Source: Hermatobates lingyangjiaoensis
Lineage: Eukaryota; Arthropoda; Insecta; Hemiptera; Hermatobatidae
DNA length: 64,000 bases
Assembly (NCBI GenBank): GCA_026182355.1
Contig: JAPFBL010000310.1
Span: 291,501 to 355,500, forward strand
Direction: 5' to 3'
Below, piece by piece: positions 6,471 through 53,100 of this stretch. How positions within the stretch are numbered: position 1 is the stretch's first letter; every line of letters begins with the position of its first letter. The position numbers and the translations under genes are program-made. Below the pieces are notes generated by a model, which saw only the letters and a list, made by a program, of their open reading frames with translations, ran no database searches and was not told the DNA's origin.

Positions 6471-6493
6471 TGATGAGATTTAGTTGGGTTACT

Positions 6494-9400
6494 ATGTCTG
6501 TTGTAAGGAGTTATATATTTTTTGATCTGGAAACAACTGGTTTACCATATTGCCATGTTGGTCCAATAAAGATTACAGAACTGACCATGATAGCAGTGGT
6601 GAAAGATCACTTTGCTTTGACTCCTTTTAAACCTCCAAGAGTGGTAAATAAAATAACTCTCTGCATGAATCCCATGAACCATATCTCTAAAGGAAGTTCA
6701 ACGATTACAGGTATATTCATTCACATTATGTAGTGGTAGCGGCTTTCCGTAGTAGCTTTTTACAATTACAAAAATTATGTGTATTGGAAGCATCCTTTTT
6801 AATTACATATTAAAGTGATATTGTGATCTATAATCGTATTTTAATAATTTTGTTTCAATTGCATTATTGCCTTACTGAAGAATTGATTGGAAAGCCAATT
6901 GATTTACTTGGTTGTATCCTATCTTCCATTTCTTGAATATATACGTTTCTGATTATTATTTTGCAATTTTAACTTCATTTTATCACAAAAAATACGATTT
7001 CCGATTTCTGTTATAAAATATGAGCCCACGTTGGTCTCAAAATAATGGATGTAACTACTGAATAATGCTAACTCTTCATTTTCAGGATTGAACAATGAAT
7101 TACTTGATGACTTGAAATCATTTAATGAACAAGTCTGTTTAATGCTGTCAAGTTTTGTTGAGCACCTTCCTCAACCTGCATGTCTTCTTGCTCACAATGG
7201 AGACAACTTTGACTTTCCAATTTTTAAATCTCATGTAAAACATGTTCGTCAGGTAAACAGAAGTTTTATAAATACTTATTTCTTTGATTATTACTGAAAC
7301 GTATGCTTTCATATTTGCTTTTACTTTACTTTCATATAAGCTGTACTCTGTTCTGGAAACTCGACAAAAAATGCAAATTCATTTAAATAGAATAATTTCA
7401 TTTAATAACTATTGGTTAAAAATAAAAAAAACGAGACTCTCGAAACTAAATTCATGATATGAATATATAAGTTGTCATTGACGTGAACGGTGTGATATGT
7501 CAGAATTGTCGTCTAATTTTTATCCAAATAACTTCGATTTCAATAATGATGGACCTTTAGTACAACAAACTTTTTTTTAATGAATTGTAGGTTTACAGTA
7601 TATAATGACTCATGAATGAGATACTGATATTGGAATGCGTCACTAATGTAACTTGGAGCAGTTGTACTCTGTACCCTTGAAGATTTGCAAATTATTTCTT
7701 CATTTACTTAGTGGTGATATTTGATTTGATAAGAAATATACGTGTATATAAGTTTGTACTATGGTTGGAATTGAAATTGGACCTAGGCCGGTGTTTTTGG
7801 TTCTAATTCTAAAATCTTGTATGTCGTTAATTATTACTGTTTAACGCATAACCCGTTCTGCTTCACTGTTATATTTAATTATTACAACGTGATTTTGAAC
7901 TTGCATTTTCATTAATGCATTCACTGTGTTTGAGCATTCAAGAAAGTAAGTTTTTGAGAACTATTTTTTACACTGTATAATTTAAGAAGCAATATTTTGG
8001 CGATAAAATTAGCGAATGAAAATTGTTGATTAATAATTCTTGCAATCATACTCTTTCTAAAGTATTTCCACAAACTTAGAATTTTCCGTGTTTGAAGTCT
8101 TCCCAAGGTTTTCTACCTTTTGTACTCTCTCCTATAATATTGGGCAATATTATTATTATTATTATTGTCATTATTATTACATCACATCTTTAATTGAATA
8201 AAGCAACCCAGACTTAGAAAAGACATAAAAATTTCAGGAGCTAAGCTTAAAGATTATTTTTTGTTTGTAGAAAGTTACTCCTCCCGGATTGACACCAAAC
8301 CTATGGTGATGTGACGCTACTAATATTCTAATAAAATGACAGAATTTAATCGTATTTCGTTTATATATAGTAGTATTTGATGTGGTAGGACAGAAAGCAG
8401 GGGGTATGGCCTTGTTTTATTTATTATTTGGTCTCTGGTTCCTTAATTGATAGATCCTTAAACTATAGCTTAATTCTTCGATTAAGATTATAGTTTCACA
8501 TGCTCTTTTAGTTAAACACTAAGCCAGTTGCCTGTTTTAATACGTAAATAGTTGACCCTTTTAAGTTTCTGTTCAAATGTGTTCAACTTATTTTTGACTT
8601 TACTGTAATAAGGTATAGGATATGATAAAAATATAATTTTTTTAAGGTTTTACGCGTTTTAAGGTCCTCTGAATTCATTTTTCTGCCATATATCTGTATC
8701 TAAAAATTTTGTTGCCATTTGGGTGTATATTCCAAAGTTTGTGAACATGCTACAGGTCACACCATTTTATGTATCATATAGATATTACACCAAATGTAGC
8801 CGTTGGACTTCAAGATTATGTACTTCTGCCATTATGGAGAAAATTGTGGACTTAGCCCACCTCCAGCGAGAAATTCGAAGGACAGTGAAGAAAACTATTT
8901 TTAACCTTTTAAAAAATTAAACTCAAGGATGAATAGTTGTACTAGGGGAGGATAAACACTCTATTGAGAAAGATCATCTGGTGGGTACTCATGTCACCAA
9001 GGGATGATATGGGTAAAGTATTTGAATTCAAAAAGAATTTCCAAGAATACCTTGTACCAAAGACGGAATTAGGAAAGGAAACAAAGAGGATATTGGAGGA
9101 AATGTGATCCGATGGTATACAGATGGATCAAGGACAGTGGAAGGTACACGAGCTACTGGAGTATTCGGGCCTAAGACTAGATACTCCGAATCTATGTACA
9201 CCACTATCTTCCAAGTTGAAATCCATACCATCGAAAGATGTGCACAATTTAATATGGATAAAGGATATAAGAACAGACATATAGCAATAATGTCTGATAG
9301 TCAAGCAGCAATTAAAGTATTGAGCTCAAACCTGAAATGAATGATGGTCCTGAACTGCAAAAATAAACTCAATCTCATGGGTATCAGAAACAGGATCTCT

Positions 9401-12400
9401 CTCTACTGGGTGCCAGGACATGCAGGAGTAGAGGGAAATGAACGAGCAGATGAACTTGCAGGGGTTGAGAATAGGTAAATCTTGTATTGTATGGAAAGGA
9501 GCAGGAATAATCTAAGGATTTTAACCGAATTTCTAACGGCTGAATGCAAACTTAATGGCCATCTGCGAAGAATGGTCATTATCAATGATGGTTTATGGAA
9601 ATTCTTCAATGAAAAGGAAGAAACACCGTTGCACCTACTAGCTGACTGTCAAGACACCCTGCTATACAGAAGCAGGTATTGAGACACTCAACGAAACTAT
9701 AGAAGAACGTTTACCGTTGGACCCAGGAAAAGTGCTGTACTTCTTGGAGGCGTTGAAGCTAACTGGAGCTCTATAGTACAGAAGGGGGGGAAGTACAATA
9801 GTTCTTAGGACGCAGTACTATAATCACCGTCAATAAATACATAAATGTGTACCCGGTTTAGTGAGAGTCTGATGTATAGTTATTAGTTAACATTAAATCA
9901 TGGGAAAGCTACTTATTCTTCATTATATAAATATAGGTCTCCTTTTTTTCTCCTGAGCTAAAACTCTAGAGCAGAGATTCTCAAAGTGGGTTCCATAACG
10001 GACTGTCCGGGGTTCCGCGAAAAAAATTTAGAGAAAAAATTTTTCTAAATTTTTTTCTTTAGTGGGTATGGATTTATTCTGTGTTTCTTGTGAATCCTGA
10101 AACTGAATAATACTTATACCCATAAGTAGAAGTGGCCAAAATGTTATTCATATTTAAGATGAATCACTAGTCAGTTTTTGGAGATATCTGAGTCCCGAAT
10201 TTCCTTCTATTGTAAAAATAGTAGTTCACACCTTGCTTCTACTTCCCACTACCTACTTATGTAAAACCGTTTTTTCCTTTTATGCTGCCATAAAAACTAA
10301 ATACCAAAGCAGACTTAATGCTCGGTCTGACATGAGAATCAAACTTTCAACTATAAAATCAAAAATGATTATAAAATAAATTTTGTGTAAAAGTTGCTAA
10401 TAATTCTGTTTCATGTGTTATGTACTTGTGGAAGATATGAAAATTTAAATCTTTTAGTTTTGAATTTTTCTTCGAAAAATTACACATTGCAGTAATATTA
10501 CTTTTTAATTGTTTTTAAACATACATACTATTTATAAAAGCATATGATAATATATATATATATTATGATTGTATAAAATCATTAGAATCTGGGGTTCCTA
10601 GGAAAATTACTAAAGCAAAAAGGGTTCCGCGTCGAAAAAAGTTTGAAAAACTCTGCTCTAGAGAATTTAAATGTAATAAGTATAGAGCTGATAATAGTAT
10701 TAATAGAAGAATAAAGCATACTTTTTTGAAGGTATTAAAGCTTAATTTTAATTACAGATTTGAACATTTTAACTGAATATTGAATTAGAAGATTGTGAAC
10801 TGGATGTTGGTCATACCGTTAAACAGATAGCTCATTATAGTATTAGAGCTGATTAGTTTTTTTTTTTTTTTTTTGTTGACATGGATCAAAGAAAAAGATT
10901 ATTATAATACATTTTGTGTATTAGAATTTTTTTCCCAAAATAACTCATTGTAGAATATTAAAATTTTTTTTATGAAGTGATAAAACTTTGAAGAATTTTG
11001 TCCAACTGTCCAAATATGATATATATTATATATATATATTATCAAATATGATATATGATACCACTGTCACTTATATGATAGTGAAAACGGATACTCAACC
11101 GTATAATCCCAACCTATTCCTACTACTTCGAGATAAAGTAATCAAAATTGAGCTAAATAGATTTATCAAATTTTATTAAATGGTTTGAAAAAAAAATTAA
11201 AGAATTGTTAGGGAGTTACTTAGTTGATAAGTAATACGTTTACTTATAGTAAAGTTAACAAAAGGACTCTATGTTTGTTTAAAGCATTTAGATTGGCAAT
11301 TTTTTGTGGCTTAAACTGGTAAATCTAGGTTTTTTGACGCCTAGTCTTAGTTTTAAATTCTTTAAGAACTTCCCTTGACCTGTATCTCGAACCAATTATA
11401 GTTACGTGAAATGACGTATTATAAATTAGAATTTAGTTCTCTAGTGGAATGTTTATTTACATTTCAAAATTGAACTGAAGACGTTAAAAAATAATAAGAT
11501 GACAGTCTAAGAAAGGTAAAAAACAGACCTCACGGATATTTAAATCAAGAAAAAAATTAAACCGTGTCTATTAGGATGTGTTGATTCATTAACTCCATTT
11601 ATATACCTATATTTATAAATTTTCTCTCCAAATATGGTTTGAGTTTAAATATATTAGTACATCTTAGGTTGTTTTTGATTATGCAAGTGAAGTCGTTCCC
11701 ACCTTTCCCTTTCATAGTTTTCAAAATTGCTTTAAACAAATTCTGTTTTAATGAACAAGTATAAATGATATCTGAACCTTTGGAAATACATTATTTGTTA
11801 CTATCATTGTTTGTTATAACAATCATTTGTTATTTCAGGCTCTTCCAGAAAGTTTACTCTGTGCTGATACGTTAAAAGCCTTTAGGGATTTAAATGTTAT
11901 GGTAATGGAACCTAATTACTGGAAAAAACCTGAGAGGTAAGATTTAACGATAGGTGAACTCGTAGGCATTTCATTTCTTAAAGCATCTGCTTCTTTCATT
12001 GCAGTTAATGAATATGACAAGGCGTTGCTCCAGCTAGAGGCTGGTTTATTTTGCACCCATTTTATTTATGGGCTCAGTAATGTTATTTAGTTACATTATT
12101 CTGTTGACTCTAATTCGTGTACCCTCAAATTTGTATCGACGATTCGCCCCCACATTGAGGGAGTGCTGGAATAACCATTAAGAAAAATAAACTCCTGCTT
12201 AGGGCATGAAGGGAAGTTGTGCACCACAAATTTATCATTCATGCATTGTTAGAGTAACCGTTAAATGTTGAGACTGATAGAAACAAATTCTATTTATGGA
12301 TACTGTACTGAAATTAGTAGGAAACTCATTTAAAGCCAGTTTTACTTTGGTACGGACAGAGGTGTTTTCAACTACAAGTCTCAACGTATCATAAAGAAAA

Positions 12401-13591
12401 TACCCAATGACTTAGATGCACCAGATGTAAATTTGATGCCAGAGATGAATTCCGTACCACCATAGTTTGCACGATTGTTTACTTGCTTAATGCTAAGAGA
12501 AAACAAGAGATGAGAAGCATATGTAGAGAAATTGTGTAGAGATTTTGGTTTTCCTCTTTTATTTTTCCTGACAACGATTCAAAACGAAACTTGCGCACTT
12601 AATTAAATCGTTTGTAATTAAACACACTTACAAACTGAAATTTTTGAGCGATGCGTCTTCAAGAGGAGGAGGAGAGAGAGAGAGAGAGGGGGAGACCAAG
12701 CACTAGTTACTTACCATTGCGTCTACAGCGTGCTTGGTCTCCCTCTCTCTTTTCTCCTGAAGACGGATTACCCGTAATTTAAAGTAAGTACGGTTAATAC
12801 ACATTACATATCATAGAGTTTAAAAAAAAATAGTGGAGTAAAAAGCAAATAATTTTACATTGTAATTAAAAGTCTTTTAATATTATAATTTTAGATTGAT
12901 ATACAAATATGAAAGGTTGCAATAAAACAGCTCAGACTTTGGTAGAGGGTGCACGAATACCGTACTAATCCCGTACTAAACTACTGATTGTTTGTGTTGT
13001 TTTAATTTAAGGAAGTTGCGAACGATACTAATTCATATTAAATTAGATAGTCATCATTTGTCTAAATTATTAATTTAGCATACTATAATGTCCATAACTT
13101 TTTTTTTGTTAACATATTTTGTTCTTTCTTGTAGTACTGAATGGGATTGTGAAATCGAATCAGAGGATTTAGTAACAATATTAGATGAAATCGAAGAGCA
13201 GCTATCAAATGCATGTCAAGAAACTCCAGTGAAAAATAAAATCCCTGCAGATTCGAATTTGTTGGCGTTAAAAACTCCGAAGAAAGAACTGAATGGAAGA
13301 AAAAACAACAAAGTTGAAACTACTCCAGAAATTTCAGTAAAAACTGAAAAGAGAGTTGCATCAAAAGCAAAAAGAATGTTGGATTATTCTCAAATTAAAG
13401 ACAAGCCGAAAGTATCTTACAAATTGAACTCCATTTACCATCATCTGTTTGGATGTGATATTAAAAATGCGCATTCATCCGAATCAGATGCCCAAGCGTT
13501 ACTAAATATTGTTTCATTAATAGGTTCACCCTTTCACGAATGGTTGCAAAATAATTCTAGACCTTTCATAAATGTGTCTAGATTATGGTAG
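6494..13591 (+). CDS. TREX: TREX-type three-prime repair exonuclease (DEDDh family)
   Basis: Exons: 6494-6710 (ATG at 6494 has a good context; an in-frame ATG at 6473 is possible), 7086-7252, 11839-11936 and 13135-13591, all with GT/AG junctions and matching phases; about 312 residues. Exo I is FFDLETTGLP (catalytic Asp and Glu) in exon 1. Exo II is LLAHNGDNFDFPIF (catalytic Asp) in exon 2. Exo III is HSSESDAQALL (His and Asp) in exon 4, preceded by YKLNSIYHHLFG, typical of TREX1/TREX2. The enzyme family removes nucleotides from DNA 3' ends and clears cytosolic DNA. All four acidic residues and the His are present, so it should be active. Exon 4 carries a lysine-rich insert between Exo II and III. 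No C-terminal membrane anchor like that of vertebrate TREX1 is seen, which favours a TREX2-like form. Intron 3 (4.6 kb) holds a LINE remnant and a hAT MITE. Confidence 0.9.
8141..8180. repeat. (ATT)n microsatellite
   Basis: A run of ATT trinucleotides in intron 3 of the TREX gene, with one interruption (GTC). No function inferred. Confidence 0.8.
8940..9790 (+). pseudogene. Non-LTR retrotransposon (LINE) RNase H and C-terminal remnant
   Basis: An RNase H domain opens with WYTDGSRT near 9110 (first Asp). It continues with a VEIHTIERC segment (Glu) and MSDSQAAIKVL near 9290 (Asp). After an in-frame stop at the end of the first block it goes on with YWVPGHAGVEGNERADELAG near 9410 (last Asp). 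The region beyond 9500 reads CKLNGHLRRM and EETPLHLLADC, the usual C-terminal tail of R1/Jockey-type LINEs, and then TLNETIEERLPLDPGKVLYF in another frame to about 9775. Reverse transcriptase and endonuclease are absent, consistent with 5' truncation. It lies in intron 3 of the TREX gene, in sense orientation. Confidence 0.85.
9972..10655. mobile_element. Non-autonomous hAT element (MITE), 684 bp
   Basis: The ends read CAGAGATTCTCAAAG and GTTTGAAAAACTCTG, imperfect inverted repeats. The perfect 8-bp duplication CTCTAGAG is at 9964-9971 and 10656-10663. Subterminal GGGGTTCCGCG and AGGGTTCCGCGTC motifs recur at both ends. There is no coding capacity. It lies in intron 3 of the TREX gene. Confidence 0.93.
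12654..12765. repeat. Foldback repeat with GA-rich arms
   Basis: The left arm (CGTCTTCAAGAG, a long GA run, then GGGAGACCAAGCA) is mirrored by the right arm (TGCTTGGTCTCCC, a CT run, CTCCTGAAGACG). The arms are nearly perfect apart from GA-run length, around a spacer of about 28 bases. A related but shorter hairpin sits at 22154-22209 and shares the CTCTTCTCCTGA end, suggesting one foldback family. Located in intron 3 of the TREX gene. Confidence 0.75.
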
Positions 13592-27800: not shown

Positions 27801-27824
27801 TTACACAATTAATCTGGGACTATA

Positions 27825-28162
27825 TTGCAAGTTAATATGAATTGTGGAATTAAGCGTAAAAGAGTTATTGTCTGTTTCGCAATGACGGTAAATAAGTCGC
27901 AAGGTCAAACTCTGTCTACAGCAGGAACTAAAGTGAGACCATGTTTTTCTCACATGGTCAACTGTATGTTGTTGCTCAAGACTCAGAGGTTCCGACTTAG
28001 TTCTTCCATGAAGCTGAAGGACAGACAGCTATTGTGGTCTGCACAATTACACTTACTGAACACTGTGCAAATAAATATATTTTTTTAAATAATATTTTGA
28101 AATGCCACGTATTATCTCTGATAATGTGTAAAATACCCGTCAAAGATGGGCACGCCTGCTAA
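27825..28162 (+). mobile_element. Helitron 3' end with Pif1-type helicase C-terminus
   Basis: The frame from 27825 reads VCFAMTVNKSQGQTLSTAGT, the conserved C-terminal motif of Helitron Pif1 helicases, followed by a CFSH segment. The element ends in a hairpin (28136-28150, six pairs including one G-T, AAA loop), nine bases, then CTAA at 28159-28162 followed by T. A 3' hairpin plus CTRR next to a host T is diagnostic of Helitrons. The upstream helicase, Rep domain and 5' TC end were not found, so this is a truncated copy. Confidence 0.85.
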
Positions 28163-29640: not shown

Positions 29641-30267
29641 AAAATCAGCGACAAGTCCTTACGCTATATCAAGCTCAAGAAAGAACTTTCAAGTCAGTAA
29701 ACCGAGTGATTAGTGATGAGGAAGCAGTTCATTATCCAACTGAATTTCTTGACTCCATGACTGCCTGCTATAAGTAAAAACTGAAGTAGGGCACCAATTA
29801 TGCTGCGATTTAGTAGCAGTAACAAATTTCATGTTACGAAACTTGAGTGCCTCAAAAATGTGCAACGAGACACTACCCTGAGTTCGTACTCTGCACAGAT
29901 ACGCCATACAGACATCATGACTGGGTGTCTGTGTGTACACCATGCATACCATTTACTCCGATCCACTATCCGTTTCCATTCAAACGATTGCAATGTCCCG
30001 TCAGTATCTGCTTCGAAATGATGGTAACTAAGTCGCAAGGGGAAACTCTATCAACCGCAGGAATTGAAGTGAGAAAGAACAAGTTTTTCTCACATGGTCA
30101 ACTGTAGTTTGCTTACTCATGAATCAGAGGTTCCAACTCATATTCTTTCATAAACCTTAAGGACGCACTTCTAATGTGGTGTATACAAAGGCATTTACTT
30201 AACACTGTACATGGCATTATCTCCGAATTTTTGAAATAGTACCGTCAAAGACGGGCACGTTTGCTAG
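29640..30267 (+). mobile_element. Second Helitron 3' end with decayed Pif1-type helicase
   Basis: Pieces of Helitron helicase run in order: a VISDEEAVHYPTEFLDSM segment near 29710, ITKLECLKNV-like codons near 29830, IHYPFPFKRLQCPVSICFEM near 29960 and VTKSQGETLSTAGIEV near 30020, then FFSHGQL. The 3' terminus is a perfect hairpin (CCGTC at 30242-30246, GACGG at 30250-30254, AAA loop), nine bases, then CTAG at 30264-30267 followed by T. It shares this terminus with the copy ending at 28162, so both belong to one family. Stops and shifts inactivate it. Confidence 0.85.
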
Positions 30268-38724: not shown

Positions 38725-40634
38725 TAACCTTTGTAAAATTTTAAGATCACAATATTTAGTTCAGAGATATTTATTGCCTGTAAATTTATATTCTATGTAA
38801 ATAAGGTCTTTCATTAATAGATTACTTAAAACAACTTGGTATACTTTTATTTCTACCAGTTATTTTTACCAGTTTTTTAAATGAGATCGTACTAGAAAAT
38901 TAAGTAAAAATCAGTTAATAACTATGTATATGAAGAAATAATGGAAACGCCATCCATTGCTTTTATCATTTTATCACATTACATAATTTAAATTTTTTTC
39001 ATAAGTTGGACAAGCGAACTTCGGCTAATAAAAGGAACAATGAGAGAAAGTTTAAAGAATAAGACAACAGAAAGCAATTAAGTAGGTTGTTTACTAGAAC
39101 GATTGTCATTTTATAAGATAAGGTTTTGAAGGAAAGTACAGTTGATGATTTAAAAATATAATAGCAACATTGTAGGATAAATTTGAAGATTTGTTGCAGA
39201 ATATGATCTATTCATTATAAATAATTGTATGAGTGTTAATGAATTACTAACTGGTTACCATAACTATGTGATCAGAAAACAAACCCCTAACTTAGCTTTC
39301 TTAATTTTACAAGTGTAATAAAGTGTAAACGAATGAAACATGCTTCCTTCAACTAAAAAGAAAAAAGAATATAAAACTTGCTCGATACGGTCACCTGAAT
39401 CACTCAAAGATTAATGTAAAAATCTGTACAAATGAAAACACCAATTTTACATTTTTCCATATTTTGTAATTTTGAAACATTAAATGATATTTTAATCGAC
39501 TATTTGTTTTCAGTTTTCTTTAAAGTTTTTTGTTTTTAAACTATTGTAATCTGAATATTTTGCTATCAATTTTTTGTAAGTTTTATAGCTTAAAATTGTC
39601 AAGAGGTTTCGCCGTTGATATGTTCTTAAAATTGATTCAGATAGAACATAGACGTATTAACGATACAACTTTAGTTAAATAGCTTTCACAGAGGTAGTAC
39701 AACCCGTTTAACTGCTTCGAACGCTACTTTTTTTTTAGTTATGTATGAACTATTTTTTTTTTAAATTTTACCTCTAAACTTGGCCAACAAAATTAGATGT
39801 CTCCAATTCGAATTGGATCTCTTTTGGCCATTCGAACAAACACATAATCATAAAATTTATTTTTTTATTCATAGATTTATAGTTATGTATAAGGCCTTTG
39901 GCGGTTTAAAACGAAAATTAAGATTCCAAAGGAGTCGCATTAATATGAAGGACTCCTTGACCTTTCAGATGGACCTGTGTACAGACTATGACCGAACACA
40001 AATTGAAATTATATGAAGGATTGCAGGAAGTGTTGAATTTTAGAAATTGCTATTGAAATAGGTAGGTTAAGAAAAACATTAAGGAGAATTGTCGATATTT
40101 GAAATTCATAACGAGAATATAAGGAATGAAATGTTGAACATCCTTTAAAACAACTGAAGTCGTCTGACCGGACCAAGTTTTTTGAAAATGAGTTAATGGC
40201 TGATAGTATCGTAAAATAATTATTATAATAAAATAATTTCCTGGAAGTTTAACGTTTCTACGTCTGGGAAGCGTATGCCCGAACAGTCAAACACCATGAG
40301 CGTCCTACAATCATTAAAGAACATATATTTTCTGATGTTCTCAAATGAATCATTAATAGTTCGACCTATGTTAGATAAAATGCCTAAATATATTATTTTA
40401 CAGGGCGTCAAAGTAAATACAAATGATCATCTGGATTGAATGCTTTTTTATTTGAATAAAAAGGCTCTGGTCTGATATTTATGGGTCATAAATTAATAAT
40501 AAAAACAGTGTAAATAGTTATCTTCATTTGAATGCCTCAAAACAAGGGAATACCTGGGAATTAGTTGGTAAACAATTGGGAAGTGTTTGGGAACTTAAAA
40601 CTATCCTGCAGACTCGAGCATAATATTTACTAAT
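38725..40634. other. Intergenic stretch downstream of UQCRQ
   Basis: AT-rich. A 78-codon open frame (39780-40016) and short minus-strand frames lack recognisable motifs. No transposon ends found. Confidence 0.55.
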
Positions 40635-40745
40635 ATTAGTCAATATTAAATCATTAGTTGTGCAATCCGTAATTGTGTGGTATTTACTCATTCTGAGGTA
40701 AAATGGATAAACCAACAAAAGTCTCCACACAAATGAAGTTTTATT

Positions 40746-40780
40746 CAACGCGTTTCGAACACTTTGTGTTCATCATCAGG
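40746..40780 (-). ncRNA. Hammerhead-ribozyme-like motif, left arm of the Penelope-like element
   Basis: Mirror copy of the motif at 41756-41788, on the minus strand: CTGATGA core, GAACAC/GTGTTC stem, GAAAC core and GCGTT. Same caveats apply. Activity is not shown by sequence alone. Confidence 0.5.
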
Positions 40781-41037
40781 AAAACACTATAATACAAATT
40801 AAATCTAATTAGTTACAAAAAGTTAGAGTGAAATAACAAAAAATAAAAGTTCAATTAAGAGAATTCAAGACATACTCAAGGAAGTGGTACTGACGGGTTG
40901 GTCAAGTGAAAACAACTAGTAGGAAACTGATCCCTTGCGAAAGAGGATAGGCAGGCATATAGGAGATAAGGTGACAAAGGTATCGGGTATGCTTGAAAGC
41001 CGTTAACTGAAATAGAGAAGGCCAGAACCAATAATTT

Positions 41038-41457
41038 AGTTCCAATAATTTAACCCCTAAATCAAGTTTTTATCCTAGTTCATTGAGTGGAGTATATAAG
41101 TTGTCCTGTAACAATTGTCAATGTTTTTACATTGGCATGACTGTGCGCTCCTTTGAGAAAAGAACCCGGGAACATTTTAATGAATACTTGCAAAGGAAAA
41201 ATGACAATAAGAATAATAAAGAATTTTTTTCACATTTTGCGAAACACCTTGTCACACAAAATCACAGCTTTGATCCAAACTTGAACCTTACCATCCTACA
41301 TGTGAATAGAAAGTTTAAAGAAATTTGTAATTTGGAAGCTTTTCAAATGAACAAGGCCGTACTTAATAATCCTTCTGCCTCTCTATGCCTTAATGATCAA
41401 ATTCCAAGGTGTCCAAAATTTCTTAAGCTGTTCCTATATTCACAAAGAATAAATTAA
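41038..41457 (+). CDS. GIY-YIG endonuclease of the Penelope-like element (partial ORF)
   Basis: The open frame (no clear ATG; open upstream into the left arm) reads SGVYKLSCNNCQCFYIGMT, then SFEKRTREHF. This gives the GVY and YIG motifs, the CxxC zinc-finger-like pair typical of Penelope nucleases, the catalytic Arg and His. An LVTQNHSFDP segment and a helical tail with LEAFQMNKA (conserved Glu) follow. About 125-140 residues are intact. In complete elements this domain follows the reverse transcriptase and nicks target DNA for insertion. Here it is alone, yet has no stop, suggesting a young or recently mobile copy. Confidence 0.85.
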   Translation, partial: SSNNLTPKSSFYPSSLSGVYKLSCNNCQCFYIGMTVRSFEKRTREHFNEYLQRKNDNKNNKEFFSHFAKHLVTQNHSFDPNLNLTILHVNRKFKEICNLEAFQMNKAVLNNPSASLCLNDQIPRCPKFLKLFLYSQRIN

Positions 41458-41755
41458 AAAAAAATAAATTTATAAAAAAAAAAAAGTTTCTTTCCTCTAA
41501 ATTATTGGTTCTGGCCTTCTCTATTTCAGTTAACGGCTTTCAAGCATACCCGATACCTTTGTCACCTTATCTCCTAAATGCCTGCCTATCCTCTTTCGCA
41601 AGTGATCAGTTTCCTACTAGTTGTTTTAACTTGACCAACCCGTCAGTACCACTTCCTTGGGTATGTCTTGAATTCTCTTAATTGAACTTTTATTTTTTGT
41701 TATTTCACTCTAATTTTTTGTAACTAATAGATTTAATTTGTATTATAGTGTTTTC

Positions 41756-41788
41756 CTGATGATGAACACAAAGTGTTCGAAACGCGTT
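41756..41788 (+). ncRNA. Hammerhead-ribozyme-like motif, right arm of the Penelope-like element
   Basis: CTGATGA at 41756-41762 and GAAAC at 41779-41783 bracket a perfect six-pair stem II (GAACAC 41764-41769, GTGTTC 41773-41778, AAA loop). After GAAA, the C-GC-G and TT permit the minimal two-pair stem III plus a GTT cleavage triplet (41786-41788), as in hammerheads reported from Penelope-like LTRs. Departures: one extra T (41763) between core and stem II, and a weak stem I. Function is inferred only. Confidence 0.5.
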
Positions 41789-41957
41789 GAATAAAACTTC
41801 ATTTGTGTGGAGACTTTTGTTGGTTTATCCATTTTACCTCAGAATAGTCAATATTACTAACATTGCCTGCTGTCGTTCAAAATAATGAATGTCAATTGTG
41901 ACAAGTAAAGAGAAATCAGTTATTATTAGGAAAGTCTGTCACGTATTAGATTATGGG

Positions 41958-41993
41958 TATAAACGATTCTGCAGTCACTAAGTGAAATCAGTT
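41958..41993 (+). promoter_or_regulatory. TATA box and initiator upstream of the densovirus-like element
   Basis: TATAAA at 41958-41963 and TCAGTT at 41988-41993 are spaced so that the initiator A falls 32 bases after the first T of the TATA box, the arthropod core-promoter arrangement. The first ATG of the following frames is at 42038. It may be the remnant of the viral non-structural gene promoter. Confidence 0.4.
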
Positions 41994-42037
41994 AGAGTTC
42001 AAGTTGCGACAGTTAGCAAGTAGAGGTCGAGCATCAT

Positions 42038-42728
42038 ATGCAGTCACCACAGGACTTAACAATGAAGAGTTATGTTTTCCGATTCATTTGTCGAAGAAGT
42101 GGCGAACAGCAGTTACCAGATGAAGATGGAGAATCCTCTGTATGTGAACGGAGATCAGAAAGCAGTAGTAAAATTCTTCACACACATCTGATGCAATTTG
42201 TGACGACGATAAGTTGCCCAGGATGAAGGAGAGGGTGATGGAGAAATTGCCATCGAGCAAGTGGTTGGTGACCATAGAAACTCGTTTTCGACTTGTTTAC
42301 TTTCAGCCGAGTCCCAAGAGGTTTCACGGGACGCTCTCCTAAGATTCACTAAGTGTAGATGCACTCCACAATCATTTCGACACGTTGGGAGGCGATACTT
42401 TAAGAAGAATAAGTCAGATGAACCAATCTGTGTCGGAACAACTGTCATCAAGTATTTGGACCAGGACTCCGGATGGGTCTGTTACATCCAAGAAAAAAAC
42501 ATCGGATGGTTTAATGTACCTAGAGGGAATGGTTATCGGAAGAAGACATCATGAGCACCATGCCGTTCGCCAGATGGTCAAAAGCGTTGATCAGGCTAAA
42601 GCTCTTCTTCGACGAGGACAGTCAAATTCACTCACTCTACCTTGGAGGAGCTGATAGATCAGGCCACAGAGGTAGTCAGCAGGGATCCCACCGTAGAGGT
42701 AAAATTCTTCCGGCTGAAATGGCTGTTA
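42038..42728 (+). pseudogene. GC-richer overlapping reading frames, probably 5' part of the densovirus-like insertion
   Basis: This block has clearly higher GC than its flanks and several overlapping plus-strand frames (42038-42226, 42261-42554, 42385-42654, 42551-42841, and a third frame ending near 42728 with LEELIDQATEVVSRDPTVEV). It lies between a TATA/initiator pair and the recognisable helicase, all in one direction. That position suggests the N-terminal part of the non-structural genes, where densovirus frames overlap. I do not recognise a specific domain, so host or transposon origin is not excluded. Confidence 0.4.
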
Positions 42729-42871
42729 TTTTAACACATTGTGTTGTCCTTGAAATAAAACAATTGATACTTTTATATTTAATAGAATTAAAAGGTATAT
42801 GTTTATTAAAGCTGGTGATGGGTGTTGGAAGAGGAGGGTAGGCATAGTGTAGAGGTAGAATCAGCACTTGG

Positions 42872-43533
42872 TCAACTAAAGAATTTTCAAAATTTTATAT
42901 TGGAAAGAAACCTTTATTTAGAAGTCATCATGGGATGTTTGAAGAAACTTATTTTGATATTTCATAGCTTTTGAAATATGCAAAAGATTATTGATGCTTC
43001 AGTGTACAGCGAATGATGAATGAGAATCAGTAAGAATTGAAAGTGTAAAAAAAATTGTTTCAGATTTGTTAAATATATTAGATAAAAAAGATTTCGAAAA
43101 AAAAACGGTTTGAAGTTGTTAGTGAACCAAGTACTGGTAAAACAAAATTTTTTATGTGGTCACTGACTTTTATTTAAATGTGGGATATATTGGTAATTTT
43201 AATAGAAATGAAAGATTTCCTTTTCAGAATTGTATTAGTAAACGAGTGAATGTATGAGAATAAATTGTGGAGAAGCAGGTTATGACAGATGTAAAATGTT
43301 ATTTGGTGGAGATTTATTGAATTGTAAAATAAAATGTGAGAGTGATGGTATTATTGCGAGAACCCTGTAATTGTATCATCAAACACCACTTGCGTTTAAT
43401 GACAGAATGTATAGATACAGGTGAAGGAGAGGTAGTTTTTTAAAAGATTACAAAAAATTATTGCACCCACTTTGTTAGCCTATAATAATAATAATAGTCA
43501 GTTATCTAATATTAATGAAATTGTCCCAGATTG
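42872..43533 (+). pseudogene. Endogenous densovirus-like NS1 helicase remnant
   Basis: Conserved parts of a parvoviral superfamily 3 helicase occur in order but in different frames. A Walker A-like segment (EPSTGKTKFF) is at 43124-43153. A GYIGNFNR / FPFQNC / SKRVNV stretch lies at 43174-43254 in a second frame. A KMLFGGD motif is at 43293-43313 in a third, and PVIVSSN (motif C) at 43364-43384 in another. An upstream piece (KKPLFRSHHGMFEETYFDI) lies near 42907. At least four frame changes and several stops show the gene is dead. NS1 is the replication initiator and helicase of parvoviruses. The pattern identifies an old germline insertion from the Densovirinae-type lineage. Confidence 0.85.
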
Positions 43534-43693
43534 AGATAAATGTTTGTTTTAAGTAAATATGTGTAGTTTATATATTATTGTATAATAAATGGTTGATGTT
43601 ATCTGTGTTTGCCATTACCCTTACTGTTTTTAAATTCTAATCAGTACATTGGCCTAGGGCTTCTACTTATTCAGTCAGTTGCAGTGGATGTGA

Positions 43694-43879
43694 ATGTTAT
43701 TTCCTGGTCATAGATACCTAGGGCCAGATAATTCTTTAAATAATGGTGAACCAGTTGATACAGATGATAGAATAGCTCAAGTTCATGACACAGAGTATAG
43801 TGAGGCAAATAGTGTTGAAAATATAAGAGTAGCAGACAAAAAACCTATTAAATCTTTAAGTACAGGAAATTGGCATTAG
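43694..43879 (+). pseudogene. Endogenous densovirus-like VP1 phospholipase A2 region, truncated
   Basis: A 61-codon open frame encodes the signature of the parvoviral VP1 unique region: the calcium-binding loop (HRYLGPDNSLNNGEPVD) and the catalytic helix with HD (RIAQVHDTEYSEA), then ADKKPI. In the family the enzyme lets the capsid leave endosomes. The loop reads GPD where GPG is usual, so the calcium site is altered. The frame is cut at 43877-43879, where a direct repeat begins, so the rest of the capsid gene is missing. NS-like and VP-like parts have the same orientation, as in monosense densoviruses. Confidence 0.85.
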
Positions 43880-43896
43880 TCAATATTACTAATATT
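43875..43896. repeat. Right copy of a 22-bp direct repeat flanking the densovirus-like insertion
   Basis: ATTAGTCAATATTACTAA plus TATT here matches, with one mismatch, the left copy at 40635-40648 joined to 41857-41864 once the Penelope-like element and its duplication are removed. It supplies the stop codon of the truncated VP1 frame. Confidence 0.65.
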
Positions 43897-44186
43897 TGTC
43901 AGGAGCCGCGAACTGACAAATAAAGGACGGCAAGAACAACCGGGTCGAATTTAGTTTAAAACGTTCACTCCAACTGTATTTACATTTGTAAAGATCGCTT
44001 TATCTTCTAAGGGAGATTTTAAAAATATATAATAATAATATAAAAAATACATATAGGACATGTATTAGTAATTTGTTTGTTTTTGTTAAAATTTTGTTAA
44101 TTTAACTGCTGTAGCTGACATCATACAAAACCTTTGAAAGTTTTCAAAAAAAAAATATATATATATATACCACTATTTTCCTTTTT

Positions 44187-44454
44187 TATCGAGGTTTGGT
44201 CTAGCTTCAATAATTCAACACCTTTAAGTCGACGTTTCGTCTATATTTGTAGACATGTTCAGGGCTTGATATTTTTCTATTGTGAGGAAGCAACTACATA
44301 AGGCTTATGTTCAAATCAGCTGGTGTACACACAAACCGTTATGTAGTTGCTTCCTCAAAATAGAAAAATATCAAGCCCTGAACATGTCTACAAATATAGA
44401 CGAAACGTCAGCTTAAAGGTGTTGAATTATTGAAGCTAGACCAAACCTCGATAG
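44187..44454. repeat. Penelope-like LTR inverted pair (foldback)
   Basis: Arms of about 115 bases run from TATCGAGGTTTGGTC to the complementary GACCAAACCTCGATA, with a spacer of about 35 bases. Each arm carries an ACAT / GTCTA-loop-TAGAC hairpin followed by GAAACGTC (plus strand near 44370-44410), the signature of Penelope-type LTRs. The sequence differs from the family at 40.7 and 50.0 kb, so this is a second family. No coding part remains. Confidence 0.7.
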
Positions 44455-44459
44455 GACTC

Positions 44460-47155
44460 ATTTCTACAAAAAAGAACTATAAATCCAGAAAAATTAATTA
44501 AATATGTCACAAGTGTGACTTGCAGAATCTTGTAAACACAGCCACCCACCCACAATCATTCAGACATCGTCCTATCTATTAAAGCTGTTTTCAGATGACC
44601 ACGAAACGTGTAAATCTATCAAGTTCTTTTTCCTTGTTCGCTGTAAATTACTTAAGTAAAGGAAAAATGTACTTATTTATTATTAAATTAAGAAGCAGAA
44701 GAACACTTTAAAAACCACTCTTCATTTTAAAAATAAAGTAGCTGAATTAACCTAGCCTTCCAATAAAATGATATATGTCAGTCAAATTCGTTTACTTGTT
44801 AGTTGAAATTAGGTGTCGTCATACATTTTCACAAGTAGGGAAATTTGCTGATACAGTTCATTAATGATACACTTTTACTGTGAGCAAACACAAAATTATT
44901 CTTTTAATATTGTCAATCAGTAAGTAACAACGATATATATGTACATTTCAAAATGAGATTTGATCCTCTATAAAAGCCTGATATACACTTTATCTTTAAT
45001 ACAATCATTTTAACATTACATAAATATCAAATTTTTAAAAACAAAAAGCTTCATTTTTTTATTTAACAAAAAATATATTCAAATTAAAAAGAATGATATA
45101 AGTAGTTTTTTTTCTTCAATTATAAACCAAACGTTTCAGTTCTTAGCGTAAAAAGCTTTAAGCAATTTGAAAAACTTCACAATTTATTGAAAATATAAAA
45201 ATATGAGATTGTAACAAAAATGGTGTCCATTTATAATACTGAACATTTTTTTAAAAAAATAATGTAGATAAAAGAAGAGTACGGTGAGATACAAAGGACT
45301 TCGTAAGTAAAGAAAACTTATTTACTAAATAACAGAGTTTTGGTGGCTGAATGTCACTTTTATTTTGGTAATCAGTCTTTTTTTTCATTTTTTAATCTGA
45401 AAAAAAATGCAATATGATGTTTTAAACAATGAAGTCAGAGGTAGGAAATATTATGCGAGTTCTTTATTTAATAATCAAAATATACGCAAAGGTAAAATAT
45501 TCTACGATCTATTAACCAGTAAAGGTCTCATTAGAAGATACGAATTTAAATTGATGTTTGGGAGGATGTTTCCTGTTTCAAAGACCTTATCAATTTTATA
45601 ATTTGTTACTGCTGCACATACGTCAATTTTTATAGCACATGTCTTTCCCTGGTATCTAGACTCAGTGGTATTTACTAATAAAGAAATAATTTTTCCCTAA
45701 CGAGGTTAGTAAAATGTATGAAATTAACTAACTACGTAATTTGAATTTTAACGGCTGGTGTTATCTCATCGATGCAGTTTGAATGAACAAAAGTGTATGT
45801 CACTGCTGCGCCATCTGGAAACTCGTACGCGAAACACATATTAGGTGTTGAGTAAAATTCATTGCTTTAATAAAAGTTTTTATTTTTCATTTCTTAAAAA
45901 ATTACTTCTTTCAATCCTAACAATTAAATTTCCTATGAGTTTTGGACTTCAAAGAATGATTGAAACCTTGCTATTTTGATTATCACCTATATCAAGAATT
46001 GAAAACTTTTCATTGCGGAGGCTTGAAAATACAATACAATCTACTTTTATGCTAAAGGTTTTAAGTATATCACAAATAAATTTTGTGATATACTTATAAT
46101 ATCACAACTTAAGGCGACGCCTTAACTACGTGGCATCTGATGAAACACACAAACGAAAGTCAATAAAGTTTGTGGGCTCTTAGTTATATGTTTGAACCAC
46201 ACTTTTCTCTGGTGCCCTATGGCACTTTTTTAAAATTTACTACAATTTAATCCTTCAAGGAACACTATTTAACAAGAATTTGAGGCCACATAGTCCATAG
46301 TATGTATGCCCACTCCTGATCTATGTCGTGATAAGAATTTTTTTAACTTAAAAATATAAGTACCAGGCAGACATACAGACTAGACTATACAATGTAGTAA
46401 GTTTTAATGGTGAAGACGGACTACTTTCGAAGCGTTAGATCCTAAGGTAGCCACTAATATGCAGTAATCCCTATTACTCAGCAAATGTTGTCCCTAAACT
46501 CTAAACTAAACCATCCAGATGATAAGAACACATTTCATTCAATTTCAAATGAAATGGCTTCTCTTTTGAAATATGACTTGCATAATGCTGTTACTACAAT
46601 CTGATTCATATCTCACTCATTCGCAAGAAAGAACTTGGCAAAGGAGTGAATAAACAAATTCTTTCAATTCAATGTCTAGAGAATTTCTTTGCAAGTCAAT
46701 AGGATTAAAACGAGATGTATTATATATTTAGCTGAAACAAACTTTTTATTTGACAGTGGAATGGAAGCTAAGGGAACTAAAAAACAATTTAATGAAGGAC
46801 TTATGAAAGGTTCTTTACTTTAAATAAAAATCTAAACAAATGGAAAGAAACAATCAAACGCACTTGTTTGGGACTGTTGAATTTGAAAATGATGATGAAA
46901 CATCACTTTATGAAGTGAAGTAAATTGAGCTATTACTCATCTATTTGTTTTATTGTGCCCAAGATTTTTCTGTAATATAGGGTTATTTCGAGGCCAAATT
47001 GTAGAAAAATCTAAAAAATTGAATGACAGTCTCCTAACTATTCTTCAATCATTAGGTCAGATCTGAATAATGTACTATTGATTTACAATAAACTCTCATT
47101 AAACAATTATTTAGCACAAAAAGATCCATAAATATTTGACTTAAATAATTAAATC
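44460..47155. other. Intergenic stretch, no gene recognised
   Basis: Two weak Penelope-LTR-like bits occur (TCAGATGACCACGAAACGTG near 44595; TTTCGAAGCGTTAG near 46430). The 64-codon frame from 45407 has no recognisable domain. A minus-strand AATAAA at 46949-46954 may serve the zinc-finger gene. Confidence 0.5.
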
Positions 47156-47160
47156 AACAA

Positions 47161-50100
47161 TTAAAGTAAATAAATATTACCCTTAGGAACATCAACTTTT
47201 TCATTAGTTCTGGGCAAAACTAGTCCATCAGGAATTTCGCTTTGACTAATATTTTCAATGGCATGAGAATACTTCAAGTCTTCATCTGACGTGTAGGAAT
47301 CAGCTAAGCCATCCTTAGAATCAAAATCAGTCGATGATTTAGAATCATCGGCATCCATCAATGGAATCTCACTTGACGCATTAACTTCTTCTATTAATTT
47401 ATTTAACAAGAACGAAGGTAAGTCCGACGCCTCTCCAGTCTGGTTGTTTAACAACCTTCTGTTGAATTCATCAGGAAGTTGAACATTGCTTAGAACAGAA
47501 GCGATGCTTTGCTTGGGACCTTTTTTGATGAACTTGTCCTTCCTTTCCTTCTTTACCTTAGGAAGCATCGCCTTTGAAAGTCTTCTGATTTCTTTCAATC
47601 TGGGATCCATTTCGTGCATAACTCTTACATGTCTTTGCAGAGAAGCCTGCAACATTAAAACAGTTCCGCTTCATTCACTAAACTATTTAATAATTAATTG
47701 TTCTCTTCCTAAGAATAAAAGTGTTCCTAAACAGCAGATAGGTAAAACTTTTTTTCGAGCTTAAAATTAAAGTTTTGTTCCCTTAATAATACATACAACA
47801 AATATATCTGAAAGACATGAAAAAATATTTTTTAAATTTTTCCAGTAGATTTTAGGCTTTTCAGTCAGGTTATTATAATATAAATGGTTATAAAATTTAA
47901 TTATATTGATATAAAATTATTTGGAATAATAATTAAGATTTATTATAATTTTAAACTTTTTTTAAAAAAAATTACTTTGGGATTTTAATAAAATTAAGAC
48001 AAACAAACTCGACACGTGACTAATAGTGAACTTAATAGTCGGCCTTTTTAGCATTATATTTTCTCTTCAAATAATCCAGAATTAATGTATGTAATTGTTA
48101 TCCTGGATTGCCAACACGAAGACGACACTGAATAAAACCTTGGAAGTATCTAAAATAACCAGAAGAACTGCAAATAATTACTACTTGTTTTCCTGTTAAG
48201 TACTTTTCTTGAAACAATTTTAAACAAGGATGCCGATAATTTATATTACAAAAATTCTACGAGTAATGAGTAAAGCAAAAAAAATAATTAGATTACAATT
48301 CTTATTAGAATGGAAATATTAGAATTTCCGTCTTTTTCCGAAAATAAGACATTGTCTTACTTTATTTTTAGGTCAAAATCCGTGCTAGGGCTGGGGAGGG
48401 CTTCAAGTACATTAAGTAGATTTAGATATTTTTGTTAATATTTATTTTTATACAGAAATTTAAATTTATTCGATTACAGTCATGTCATCTTCTGGAACAT
48501 CGTCATAAATTATCAAAATTTTGAATTCCGTTCTGATTTAATAATGAATTAATACTTCTTGTCTAAGTAGCCTCCTTGAAATGAACTTTAGAGGTAAACA
48601 AGGAATTTCTTGGAATATTTTTTTCCAAAGAATTCTCTGAAATATTACGACAGCTAGAGATACCTACTACATTCAACAGCAATTTTTTAACAAATTAAAT
48701 TTTTCACATTATCTTAACTAGGGCCTATTTTCAGGGGAGGGCTTATAGTCCAAAACGTCCCGAAATCACGCTAGGACTTATTTTCGGGGGATGTCTTATT
48801 TTCGGAAAAAGACGGTAGCAAAAATCAAATAAAATTTCAAAATAATTTCCTGGATTCAAAAAATTTATACCATTTTAAATTAATAAATATTAGTAGTTTT
48901 TTTTAAATCGTTTAATTTTCAATGAAATATACATAAATCATCTTTCCAAATCTAGATTTTTATATAGTTATTTATAATTTTACATTTATCCTTTCAAAGC
49001 CAGCTAAATCCTTACCAGATAACATATAAGGAAGCAAGGAAAGATTAAAACAAATATACAGTCACACTAAGGAAATGCCCCTTAAAGTAAATTAACTCAA
49101 AAATAATCGTGGCCAATCAACTAAAAGCGCCTCGAACTTGATTCAGTTAGTAAAATATAAGATTCTAACAGGGTACAAGTGTAGTTAGCCTATAGTAGTT
49201 AATTCAAGCCTGGCAATGACTCTAGGAATATTTAGGAAGATTTAAAATCTTCTCAAACTGTGGCTAGGAGAAGTTGAAACGCCGTCGGCCCCGAGCCAGT
49301 ACGATGTCAGGTACTCACTCGTTAAAGATCTTTATTGTAATAAACTGCAGTTGATTTTTAATTATAACCAAAGCCACAATGATAATGAATACCCCAGTTC
49401 TCATTAGAAGTTAAGTAACATTGTGCATTCTTCAAACTTGGATTGGTGACCCACATACCATGACTACTCCCAGTAATGTGGCTCGGACATTGCTTAAAAG
49501 GGTGACAAATCAAAAATGAGCCTGAACTTTTGAAAAAATGAACTTTTATTCCTTATACATTCAGAAAAGCACTAGGACTGAAGAAAAAGATATTTTATTG
49601 TATAATTTTACAGGAGTTCAATAAATTATTTTTAAACTAAAAAGACAAAAAAACCTGGTTTTTACATTTACAGTTTCATTTCGGACACCTCTAAACTAAA
49701 TTATTACCAATAACGTGAAATGCGACAGCCACCATAAATACAAAATCTACATTTCCATGTCTATTGTTAAACACCTCATGTCATCACATAGGAAAGAAAA
49801 AACTTGAATTACTTTTCTGAGGTAAAATGGATAAACAAACAGAAGTCTCCACACAAATGAAGTTTTATTCAATAACAACAACTCGTTTCGAACACTTTGT
49901 GTTCATCATCAGGAAGACAACAAAGATGTGGTGCTGAAGGGTTGGTCCAGTGAAAACAACTCAGTTTTGTTGTTTTCACTGGACCAACCCTTCAGCACCA
50001 CATCCTTGGTGTCTTCCTGATGATGAACACAAAGTGTTCGAAACGCGTTGTTGTTATTGTATAAAACTTCATTTCTGTGGAGACTTTTATTTGTTTATCA

Positions 50101-53100
50101 ATTTTACCTCAGAATGAGTAAATACCACACAATTACGGATTGCACAACCAATGATTTGAATTACTTTCAATAAAATGAAAGGATGTAACTACTAATTAGA
50201 TAAACTTATCTCCTACCTTTTTAGTTAGAACCTGAGGACACAAAGTGCACTGAAAACTAAGTTTGGGCGGAGGTTTTCTTTTTGGTATCAAGCCACTTAT
50301 GATTTTCATATGCCTATCAATATGGTTAACAAGAGCTTCTTTTCTCCTTAAACCTTTTCCACAATAATGGCAATAATAATCTACAAACAAAAAATTATAT
50401 AAATTATTAAAAAAAAATATAGCACTTAATTGATACTTCAATTATACACTAAGTAAAATATATATTGTGGAAGTAAATGATTAGGACTGGAGTCTGAACC
50501 TGGTGGGTGACCAGTAGCCATGTGTACCCGAAGTAGCTTATAGTCAGCGTACGCCTCCGTGCAGTCGCTGAAGGGGCAGATGTGGATCTTGTGACACCTA
50601 ATGTGTCTGTTATACAGATTAAGGCACATAAAGCCTGTGCCGCATTGTTCGCACCTGTCAATTTGTACATAGATTAGTGTTTATACAGATTTTATCATAC
50701 ATCCAAATAATACTCGAGTGTTTCAATACACTTTTTAACCTTTCTACACCAAGTGGTCAAAACATTCCCCTTTTTAGTATATAGTATTAATATTATTTTT
50801 GTATTACGAATTGCTTGCATAGATACAAAATAAAAAAAAATAAATACAAAATTTGAAATCTCCACAACAAAAGAAGAGCGAGAAAAAATTAGTATTTTTT
50901 TCTTAACATAAAGTACAATAAAACACCTTTCTCATGATCTAATATTTCTCAAAAAACAAATAACTATATATTTAGCAAATTTCATTAAGGCCTACCAAAC
51001 GGTGGAACTGGTAGAGTGATTATAAAATGTTTGATACACAATCGCATTTAATTTTCCAAAGATAATTAATTAGACAACCCAATAGACTTCTTAAACAACA
51101 ATAATAAACCGGTTGCATGTATCAGCCAGTGGAGCAAACATTCTGTCAAGCAGTAATTTTTCGAGAACCCTAACGATGATTTCTTAATAAATAAATTTAG
51201 AAAAAGGTATTTCAGGTAATAAATATTGACCTAAATCTTGAAAAAATAATGAAATTTTTATCAATCAAAAAGAAGTAAAAGAAAGAAGTATCATCAAGTA
51301 TCATAGAAGTAATATTACTTTGATACTTTCAAGATATGTAATATTAAATAGACGTAAATAATCTTTGCAGAGTACATTCTGTTTTCAAATTAATACACTT
51401 TTTAAACTGCTACTATCCGACTAGACACCAACTACAGTTGTCAGTTTTAAGCATCTTATAAGTCTGTCATCACCCCAAATGCCAAACCCAAGTTCTGTTT
51501 TCCAACAATGCAAGGCTTCCTCGTCAGTGAGTATCTGTTTTGATTTGTAATCATGTCTATCAACCTTTCAGCTATTCCATGAAGAAAGCACAACAGATCG
51601 ATGGTTTTTAACGTGAGACCCTTTAGCCACATCTGAAGGCCCACTACAACCATCCTGAAGGAGAGATGCGTTACCTCGCCGAGGCAGGTCCCACGACACC
51701 ACATCACAGTTAAAAAAAAATATATATTAATAATTAACACTAGGCTACTCGTTCCGTAAGTCCATGCACTTTCTTTCTTTTTCCGATGTAATTCACAAAA
51801 TTCAAGAGGTGCTGACTACTGAAGAGCCTTCTGTACAACTGATCTATGGACCTTCCTCAATTGAACACATATAGAACACTCAAACCCAACATACAAATCC
51901 CCGATATAGTACTCCAACTAACACCTGTTGCTCTTCACCTGTTGAATGGCACCAGGAACGGTACTGGTTCTCTGCCCAGTGATAGGGGACTACTGCCTTC
52001 CATCATGAAACTATAAGAGCTTGATACTGAATTTGTCACGCCTACTCCGATGTGAGTAGTTTTAAGTAATTTCAGAGAGAAGTAAACACTTACTTGAATG
52101 GAGGGGATTCCACATGTTCCGAGTTGTGTTCATCTAACTGACTTTGAGTCCAAAACAGTTCATGGCATCGTGTACATTTCAGTCGTGTTCTAGTATGAAA
52201 TCTATCTATATGTTTCTGCAAATTCTGTTTTGTTTTCAATATTTTTACACAACCGGAATACGTGCATCTGTGGAAATAAAAATCATTAATATTTTCAAAT
52301 TCAATTTAGAACTTCGCTTTCTAAATCTAAATTAAAATTAACAGATTCATGTATCCCACATCATGAATAATACTATTATATATCTTAAAAAGTGATTCGA
52401 AACGTAATGTTTCAATAAAGCAAAAATTCCACTAATTATCAATATCACTTAAAATGAAATTTTTATAAGATGTATTTAATGACTAAAGTTCAAAGACTGG
52501 AAAGTACTCATGAATGGAAAAGCAAGCAGTGAATATACTTACGGGAACGTTGTGGCGTTTATAGGCTCCGAGGAATGGGACACCTTCTCATGCCTTCGTA
52601 AATGAGAGATGTTAGTGTATCCTTTACCACATTTAGGAAATTCACACTTGAATGGCCTCTAAAACGACAATTGATTGAATGTATCTAAAAAAATAACAAC
52701 TGACAAAATATTCAGTTAAACTTAAACTACTGGTCCGCTTCATCCAACTGGAATTTTTGAATTTGCCGAGTTCCAACAAGCCTAAACAAACTTGAAAACT
52801 TTGTTTCTAACTACTTATTTGGCTATTGAGATCAGTTATAATGGTTTTGACAAACATATAATGCGTAATCGTTGATAGAACGAATTTCCATGTCAATTCT
52901 ATTCATTTTTGACAATATGTATAGCAAAAAGAAGAGTTGTGGATAATGCGTTTAATAGTTCCTTCAATAGGCCTTGAGAATGCCAAACAAATTTCGGTGA
53001 AACGTCTGTTTGTAATCAGAAATTATTAATTTTCGACCTAGTCTTCAATAGCCAAATTAGTAGGTTCTTAATCTTTGGATATATGAACTGAATGGCTGCA

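Follow-up and report, generated by a model that had tools for sequence, protein, structure and literature searches.

Relics of parvoviruses are well known from animal genomes. One survey recovered 463 sequences related to parvoviruses, covering 118 species of animals, with at least 41 likely integrated, and the available part of that report describes 31 elements with truncation by stop codons and/or neighbouring transposons (PMC5013282). Nine tick genomes yielded 135 parvoviral elements, VP1 and NS1 pieces among them (PMC10675110), and a crustacean survey lists 21 parvovirus-like elements, those of Daphnia being related to Densovirus, Pefudensovirus and Iteravirus (PMC4573495). Old NS1 copies are described from flatworms as well, again by the accessible portions of these reports (PMC13055364). 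The locus described here resembles the arthropod elements (PMC5013282, PMC4573495, PMC10675110), which in the accessible text of those papers are NS and/or VP fragments, some of them broken by stop codons and lying beside transposons. It differs from them in that a short piece across the NS-to-VP junction appears to have been kept, with its gene order readable. Though real, the locus is an unremarkable case of a familiar class of relics.

We consider it very probable that a segment of the window (the whole 64-kb stretch of DNA that was analysed) is an endogenous densovirus fragment, truncated, integrated and decayed without function. The initial annotation had called the segment an endogenous densovirus-like element, and this holds: a parvoviral VP1 piece, a relative of it that carries a Denso_VP4 domain, and superfamily 3 (SF3) helicase motifs upstream on the same strand are found in 64 kb of gap-free sequence. 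The viral DNA would amount to about 1.0-1.1 kb, running from the NS1 helicase core through the end of NS1 into the first 61 codons of VP1. The fragment is present in the assembly; its capture by an animal chromosome and its subsequent decay without function are what we infer. At least three frame changes and many stops would have broken up NS1, and VP1 seems to end abruptly at about 43876, where non-viral DNA would begin. The features are the following.

42740..43023, + strand: probable left portion of the viral DNA, or else flanking sequence, marked by a composition break; the pieces scanned were without viral Pfam match

43024..43110, + strand: possible NS1 piece in frame 1, by position only, from translation; no Pfam match

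43082..43174, + strand: NS1-like piece in frame 2 with a degenerate Walker A motif (PSTGKT at 43127), from motif search; no Pfam match

43141..43254, + strand: NS1-like piece in frame 1 (FNRN...FPFQ), recognised by eye in translation; an irrelevant Pfam match at E=0.14, no PDB match

43242..43367, + strand: NS1-like piece in frame 0 with putative motif B' (KMLFGG at 43293), from motif search; no Pfam, PDB or protein-database match

43367..43384, + strand: putative SF3 motif C (VIVSSN) in frame 2, from motif search; its stop-free piece is shorter than 20 residues and was searched only inside a frame with X at the stops

43694..43879, + strand: N-terminal 61 codons of VP1 with a PLA2 domain, as predicted from PF08398, P0003 and PDB capsids; stop at 43877-43879, inside the junction repeat

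43877..43896, + strand: 20-nt sequence, candidate junction or target-site duplication; second copy at 41845-41864 with one mismatch

The open frame at 43694-43879 (+) encodes 61 residues and then TAG, just as the initial annotation had reported for an intact VP frame. Its match to the Pfam family PF08398 (Phospholip_A2_4) has E=1.7e-8 and scores 35 bits, the cut-off being 23.9, and places the phospholipase A2 (PLA2) domain at residues 3-53. In the PDB the 61-residue piece matches parvovirus capsid chains at E=1.6e-6. Since non-capsid phospholipases A2 enter its PDB list only from E=0.022, the match is of the parvoviral PLA2 kind. Judged by homology, the frame is identified as the N-terminal start of the densovirus capsid protein VP1; with the above-cut-off PF08398 match, the PDB capsids and the relative described below (E=1e-15), the proposed VP1 phospholipase core is borne out. 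The calcium-loop sequence of the piece differs from that of this relative. Folded alone, the VP piece reaches a pLDDT of 59, and the resulting predicted structure gave 0 Foldseek matches in the viral library.

The relative, P0003 (552 aa), came from a protein database of 5.77 billion proteins, where the VP piece had nine word-sharing candidates and only this one scored up to E=10. It aligns with the VP piece at 65% identity over all 61 residues, and the initial Met is common to both. P0003 was found with the VP piece placed inside a 600-residue frame; the bare piece gave no match in the same database, candidates then being restricted to proteins of similar length. P0003 derives from a source with the tag 'lgn' and two contigs, the longest of 1855 bases, and folded alone it has a pLDDT of 28. 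It also carries Denso_VP4 (PF02336, E=1.5e-25), which places the lineage among the densoviruses. Indirectly, through this domain of the only relative found, the fragment would represent a densovirus rather than a vertebrate parvovirus capsid lineage. The body of P0003 matches 4mgu, which we take to come from an ambisense densovirus, at E=2.9e-5, and 1dnv at E=0.0025, and the other 17 of the 19 PDB chains listed for it match its PLA2 part. Up to E=10 no densovirus chain besides these two appears in the list from the PDB copy searched. According to the accessible text of PMC6521121, 1dnv is Galleria mellonella densovirus, an Ambidensovirus, and an Iteradensovirus capsid structure exists. P0003 is a full-length frame with Denso_VP4, whereas the window keeps only what corresponds to its residues 1 to about 66, and it stands as evidence of a full-length capsid relative in public sequence data.

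Viral contigs in IMG/VR were searched as well. The VP piece gave 18 pattern stretches there and P0003 gave two, none of them confirmed. Degenerate patterns gave 9, 3, 0 and 7 loci, and 0 of these 19 looked parvoviral by eye in the translations around the matches. As no parvoviral locus was among the matches, the collection gave no yardstick for comparison.

The right edge of the fragment is seen in a tblastn search of P0003 against the whole window. Residues 1-82 align at 43694-43924, with good agreement to 43876 and poor agreement after it, and the next-best match in the window has E=1.3. About 88% of P0003's VP is without a match in the window, and its Denso_VP4 part likewise finds none within the 64 kb. 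The 20-nt sequence that starts at 43877 has two sites in 64 kb at up to three mismatches, one being the query itself; in 100 shuffles there were on average 0.07 matches and no shuffle with two. The pair has E=0.021 when the region is compared by blast with the whole window, where an AT-repeat pair elsewhere does better (E=5e-4), and E=4.4e-4 when two local stretches are compared. As a junction the pair appears suggestive rather than firm: it may either bound an insert of about 2 kb that includes the viral piece or reflect an older host duplication. The stop codon of the VP frame consists of the first three bases of the repeat at 43877, which suggests that the frame stops there for want of further viral DNA.

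On the left, GC content drops from 0.467 (42590-42739) to 0.327 (42740-42889), where GC skew rises to 0.510. In 42740-43339, limits chosen after looking, the G-over-C skew is 0.51; over 1233 overlapping 600-nt windows placed outside the fragment, its magnitude never goes above 0.41. The stretch 41990-42739, immediately to the left of the viral piece, has a GC content of 0.43-0.47 and overlapping long open frames. We rejected this stretch as viral, for six-frame Pfam searches gave only ANAPC8 at E=0.032, below the cut-off; it is possibly a decayed host pseudogene or transposon. Next to the junction repeat, on its right, is a hairpin with a 10-bp stem (43893-43922). It was likewise rejected as a viral terminal repeat: its z is -2.18, 5 of 200 shuffles were as good, and it lies outside the viral homology. 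The Iteradensovirus genome has inverted terminal repeats with J-shaped hairpins; in the window no such repeat was identified, and an internal fragment would not be expected to include the genome ends.

What makes the locus readable is the NS-VP junction piece, apparently kept: it lets the gene order of an old densovirus be seen directly. From the end of motif C (43384) to the VP start (43694) there are 309 nt, both being on the + strand, in agreement with the 300 bases and common orientation noted initially. The monosense genome of the monarch iteradensovirus has its NS1 end at nt 2618 and its VP start at nt 2677 (PMC3990755), and in the itera-like HaDV2 the PLA2 is placed at VP residues 2-56 by the available text of PMC5296992. 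If the motifs are NS, the window has the same arrangement, the motifs preceding VP on one strand at a short distance, and the PLA2 stands at the extreme N-terminus of VP here too (residues 3-53). A difference is that P0003, with 552 aa, is shorter than the VPs of 659-681 aa in the corresponding passages of PMC3990755 and PMC5296992. The likeness to Iteradensovirus is one of layout, without a sequence tie to a member of that genus. The presence of a PLA2 in the window further excludes brevi-, hepan- and penstyldensoviruses and chapparvoviruses, whose VP has no PLA2 according to the accessible part of PMC6631224; one mite ambidensovirus is also without it, by the accessible text of PMC6466187. 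In our opinion, a monosense source virus, with NS followed by VP and a PLA2 at the start of VP1, is the most likely, while membership in the genus Iteradensovirus is unproven. The initial annotation's monosense assignment is therefore reasonable as far as the Iteradensovirus-like layout goes; it is unproven, since fragments can rearrange and the capsid of P0003 matches 4mgu and 1dnv.

One alternative is that the source densovirus was ambisense and that deletion and inversion, in the course of integration or later, brought NS and VP together on one strand. In its favour, 4mgu and 1dnv (E=2.9e-5 and 0.0025) are the only densovirus chains listed for P0003's capsid up to E=10, and rearrangement is possible in fragments that lie among transposons. 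However, itera- and ambidensoviruses form one lineage in the accessible text of PMC6521121 and PMC6631224; the capsid similarity is thus indecisive, and the matches of P0003 neither confirm nor refute a monosense origin. Moreover, the NS1 end and the VP1 start adjoin in monosense genomes (PMC3990755), whereas an ambisense source needs extra rearrangements. We regard an ambisense source as unlikely. Decidedly unlikely, in our view, is an undescribed densovirus lineage that would combine an ambidensovirus-like capsid, of the kind suggested by P0003, with the monosense NS-VP order, its remains having arrived as one insert of about 2 kb between the 20-nt direct repeats at 41845 and 43877.

The preferred reading of an NS1 end joined to a VP1 start depends on what the upstream motifs are. 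PSTGKT (43127), KMLFGG (43293) and VIVSSN (43367), all on the + strand, are arranged as motifs A, B' and C are in SF3 helicases. This ordered trio occurs once in the real window, both strands considered, and in 0 of 600 windows simulated with a first-order Markov model, by patterns that were written after seeing the sequence and that partly follow the SF3 consensus. The earlier claim of an SF3 helicase stands as to the motifs and their order; for the NS pieces and frames searched, neither Pfam nor the PDB nor the protein database adds a helicase match. Between 42790 and 43960 there are 19 stop-free pieces of at least 20 residues, and 10 of the 19 were scanned with Pfam. The nine of these other than VP gave no viral family: seven had no match and two had weak irrelevant ones (Tf2-1_C at E=0.14 and LSM12_LSM at E=0.047). 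Three frames with X at the stops matched 0 Pfam families. A PDB search with two NS pieces and these three frames returned no helicase (the best match, unrelated, at E=0.17, came from the frames), and one NS piece found no match in the protein database. A best match to a non-parvoviral SF3 helicase was thus not seen, but neither was an NS match of any kind. Judging from motifs and position alone, the upstream pieces are likely to represent a densovirus NS1 helicase.

The absence of a viral Pfam family from all nine non-VP pieces and all three frames, and of any helicase from the PDB or protein-database results, would fit the idea that the VP piece alone is viral and that the motifs upstream are a chance assembly or belong to another SF3 helicase. 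We find this highly improbable: the trio has the right order and spacing, which none of the 600 simulated windows reproduced, it directly precedes the VP1 start on the same strand, and the composition of the segment differs from that of its flank.

With the upstream pieces read as NS1, the frames (position modulo 3) are 1 for the piece at 43024, 2 for motif A, 1 for the FNRN piece, 0 for motif B' and 2 for motif C. Three frame changes therefore separate motif A from motif C, and the fourth of the "at least four" counted in the initial annotation applies only if the piece at 43024 is NS. The same annotation held that NS and VP decayed unequally, and this is not supported. NS shows 3 frame changes over 258 nt, or 4 over 361 nt; at such a density, the 183 nt of VP would escape any with a probability of 0.06-0.22, which is not significant, and so the intact VP frame needs no selection. 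Frames of at least 61 codons are found in 145 of the 9211 stop-to-stop frames of the window. Most simply, the 61-codon frame is a piece that, being short, has so far escaped a hit.

Selection could nevertheless be proposed: the PLA2 frame might have been kept as a co-opted peptide, or the locus might serve as a source of antiviral small RNAs, a role described for arthropod elements in the accessible text of PMC10675110. The VP frame is open while NS is broken, and its first Met is common to P0003. Against this, so short a stretch escapes frame changes with the probability just given, as many as 145 frames of the window reach 61 codons, the stop codon is supplied by the repeat at the junction, the calcium loop differs from that of P0003, and most of VP1 is absent. 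We hold both forms of this proposal to be very improbable. With about 88% of VP unmatched and a departing calcium loop, no working helicase, capsid or phospholipase is expected, and to judge from the sequence the locus is most likely dead.

The surroundings are consistent with an integrated relic. The 64-kb window contains 0 N and is AT-rich, with a GC content of 0.25-0.36 in 2-kb steps. Twenty of its 39 stop-free frames of at least 80 codons were scanned with Pfam. Above the cut-off in the window are a C2H2 zinc finger (frames at 50199-50680), a piece of DDE_1 transposase and a GIY-YIG domain; below it are a piece resembling hAT and others resembling exonuclease and RNase H. By content, the window looks like animal DNA, and as far as the assembly goes the viral segment is joined to host DNA, being flanked left and right by transposon and gene-like frames in gap-free sequence. 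An assembly artefact or a contaminating exogenous virus, for which we found no supporting point, is extremely improbable, because the segment lies inside 64 gap-free kb between such frames and its frame changes and truncation are unlike a circulating virus.

Several neighbouring elements deserve a record of their own. At 40637-41856 there is a Penelope-like element with a GIY-YIG domain (41035-41454; PF01541, E=2.9e-5), inverted arms at 40690-41039 and 41497-41845, and a 12-nt flanking repeat, TAGTCAATATTA, at 40637-40648 and 41845-41856, which looks like a target-site duplication. The left copy of the 20-nt sequence discussed above (41845-41864) adjoins this element. A core CTGATGA-16 nt-GAAAC, presumably that of a hammerhead ribozyme, is present in four identical copies against 0.01 expected, at 40752-40779 (-), 41756-41783 (+), 49885-49912 (-) and 50017-50044 (+); the same search with a 17-nt spacer gave 0. 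At gathering level Rfam listed no hammerhead anywhere in the window, and a search of 40500-44700 that went up to E=5 gave none either. Two of the cores lie in the arms of the Penelope-like element and two near 50 kb, which suggests a second element there. The tail of the Penelope-like element, at 40649-40689, is about 41 nt long, for comparison with the 30-40 bp given in the accessible text of PMC11167929.

To the right of the fragment, 44187-44453 holds a 120-nt inverted repeat, 96% complementary, with a 27-nt spacer. The four Rfam matches at 44263-44377 were rejected as microRNAs, being all far below gathering scores and reflecting this inverted repeat. Frames at 6434-13588 resemble by eye a TREX-type 3' exonuclease gene; in Pfam, the matches of the piece at 7055-7294 to exonuclease and RNase H families are all sub-threshold, and those at 6434 and 13079 are unmatched pieces. 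Two short frames, at 27813-28085 and 29847-30104, share similar 'TKSQGxTLSTAG'-like stretches and look Pif1/Helitron helicase-like by eye, without Pfam support.

The fragment adds one record of a past densovirus infection in the host lineage to a class of fossils that is frequent in arthropods and known in flatworms.
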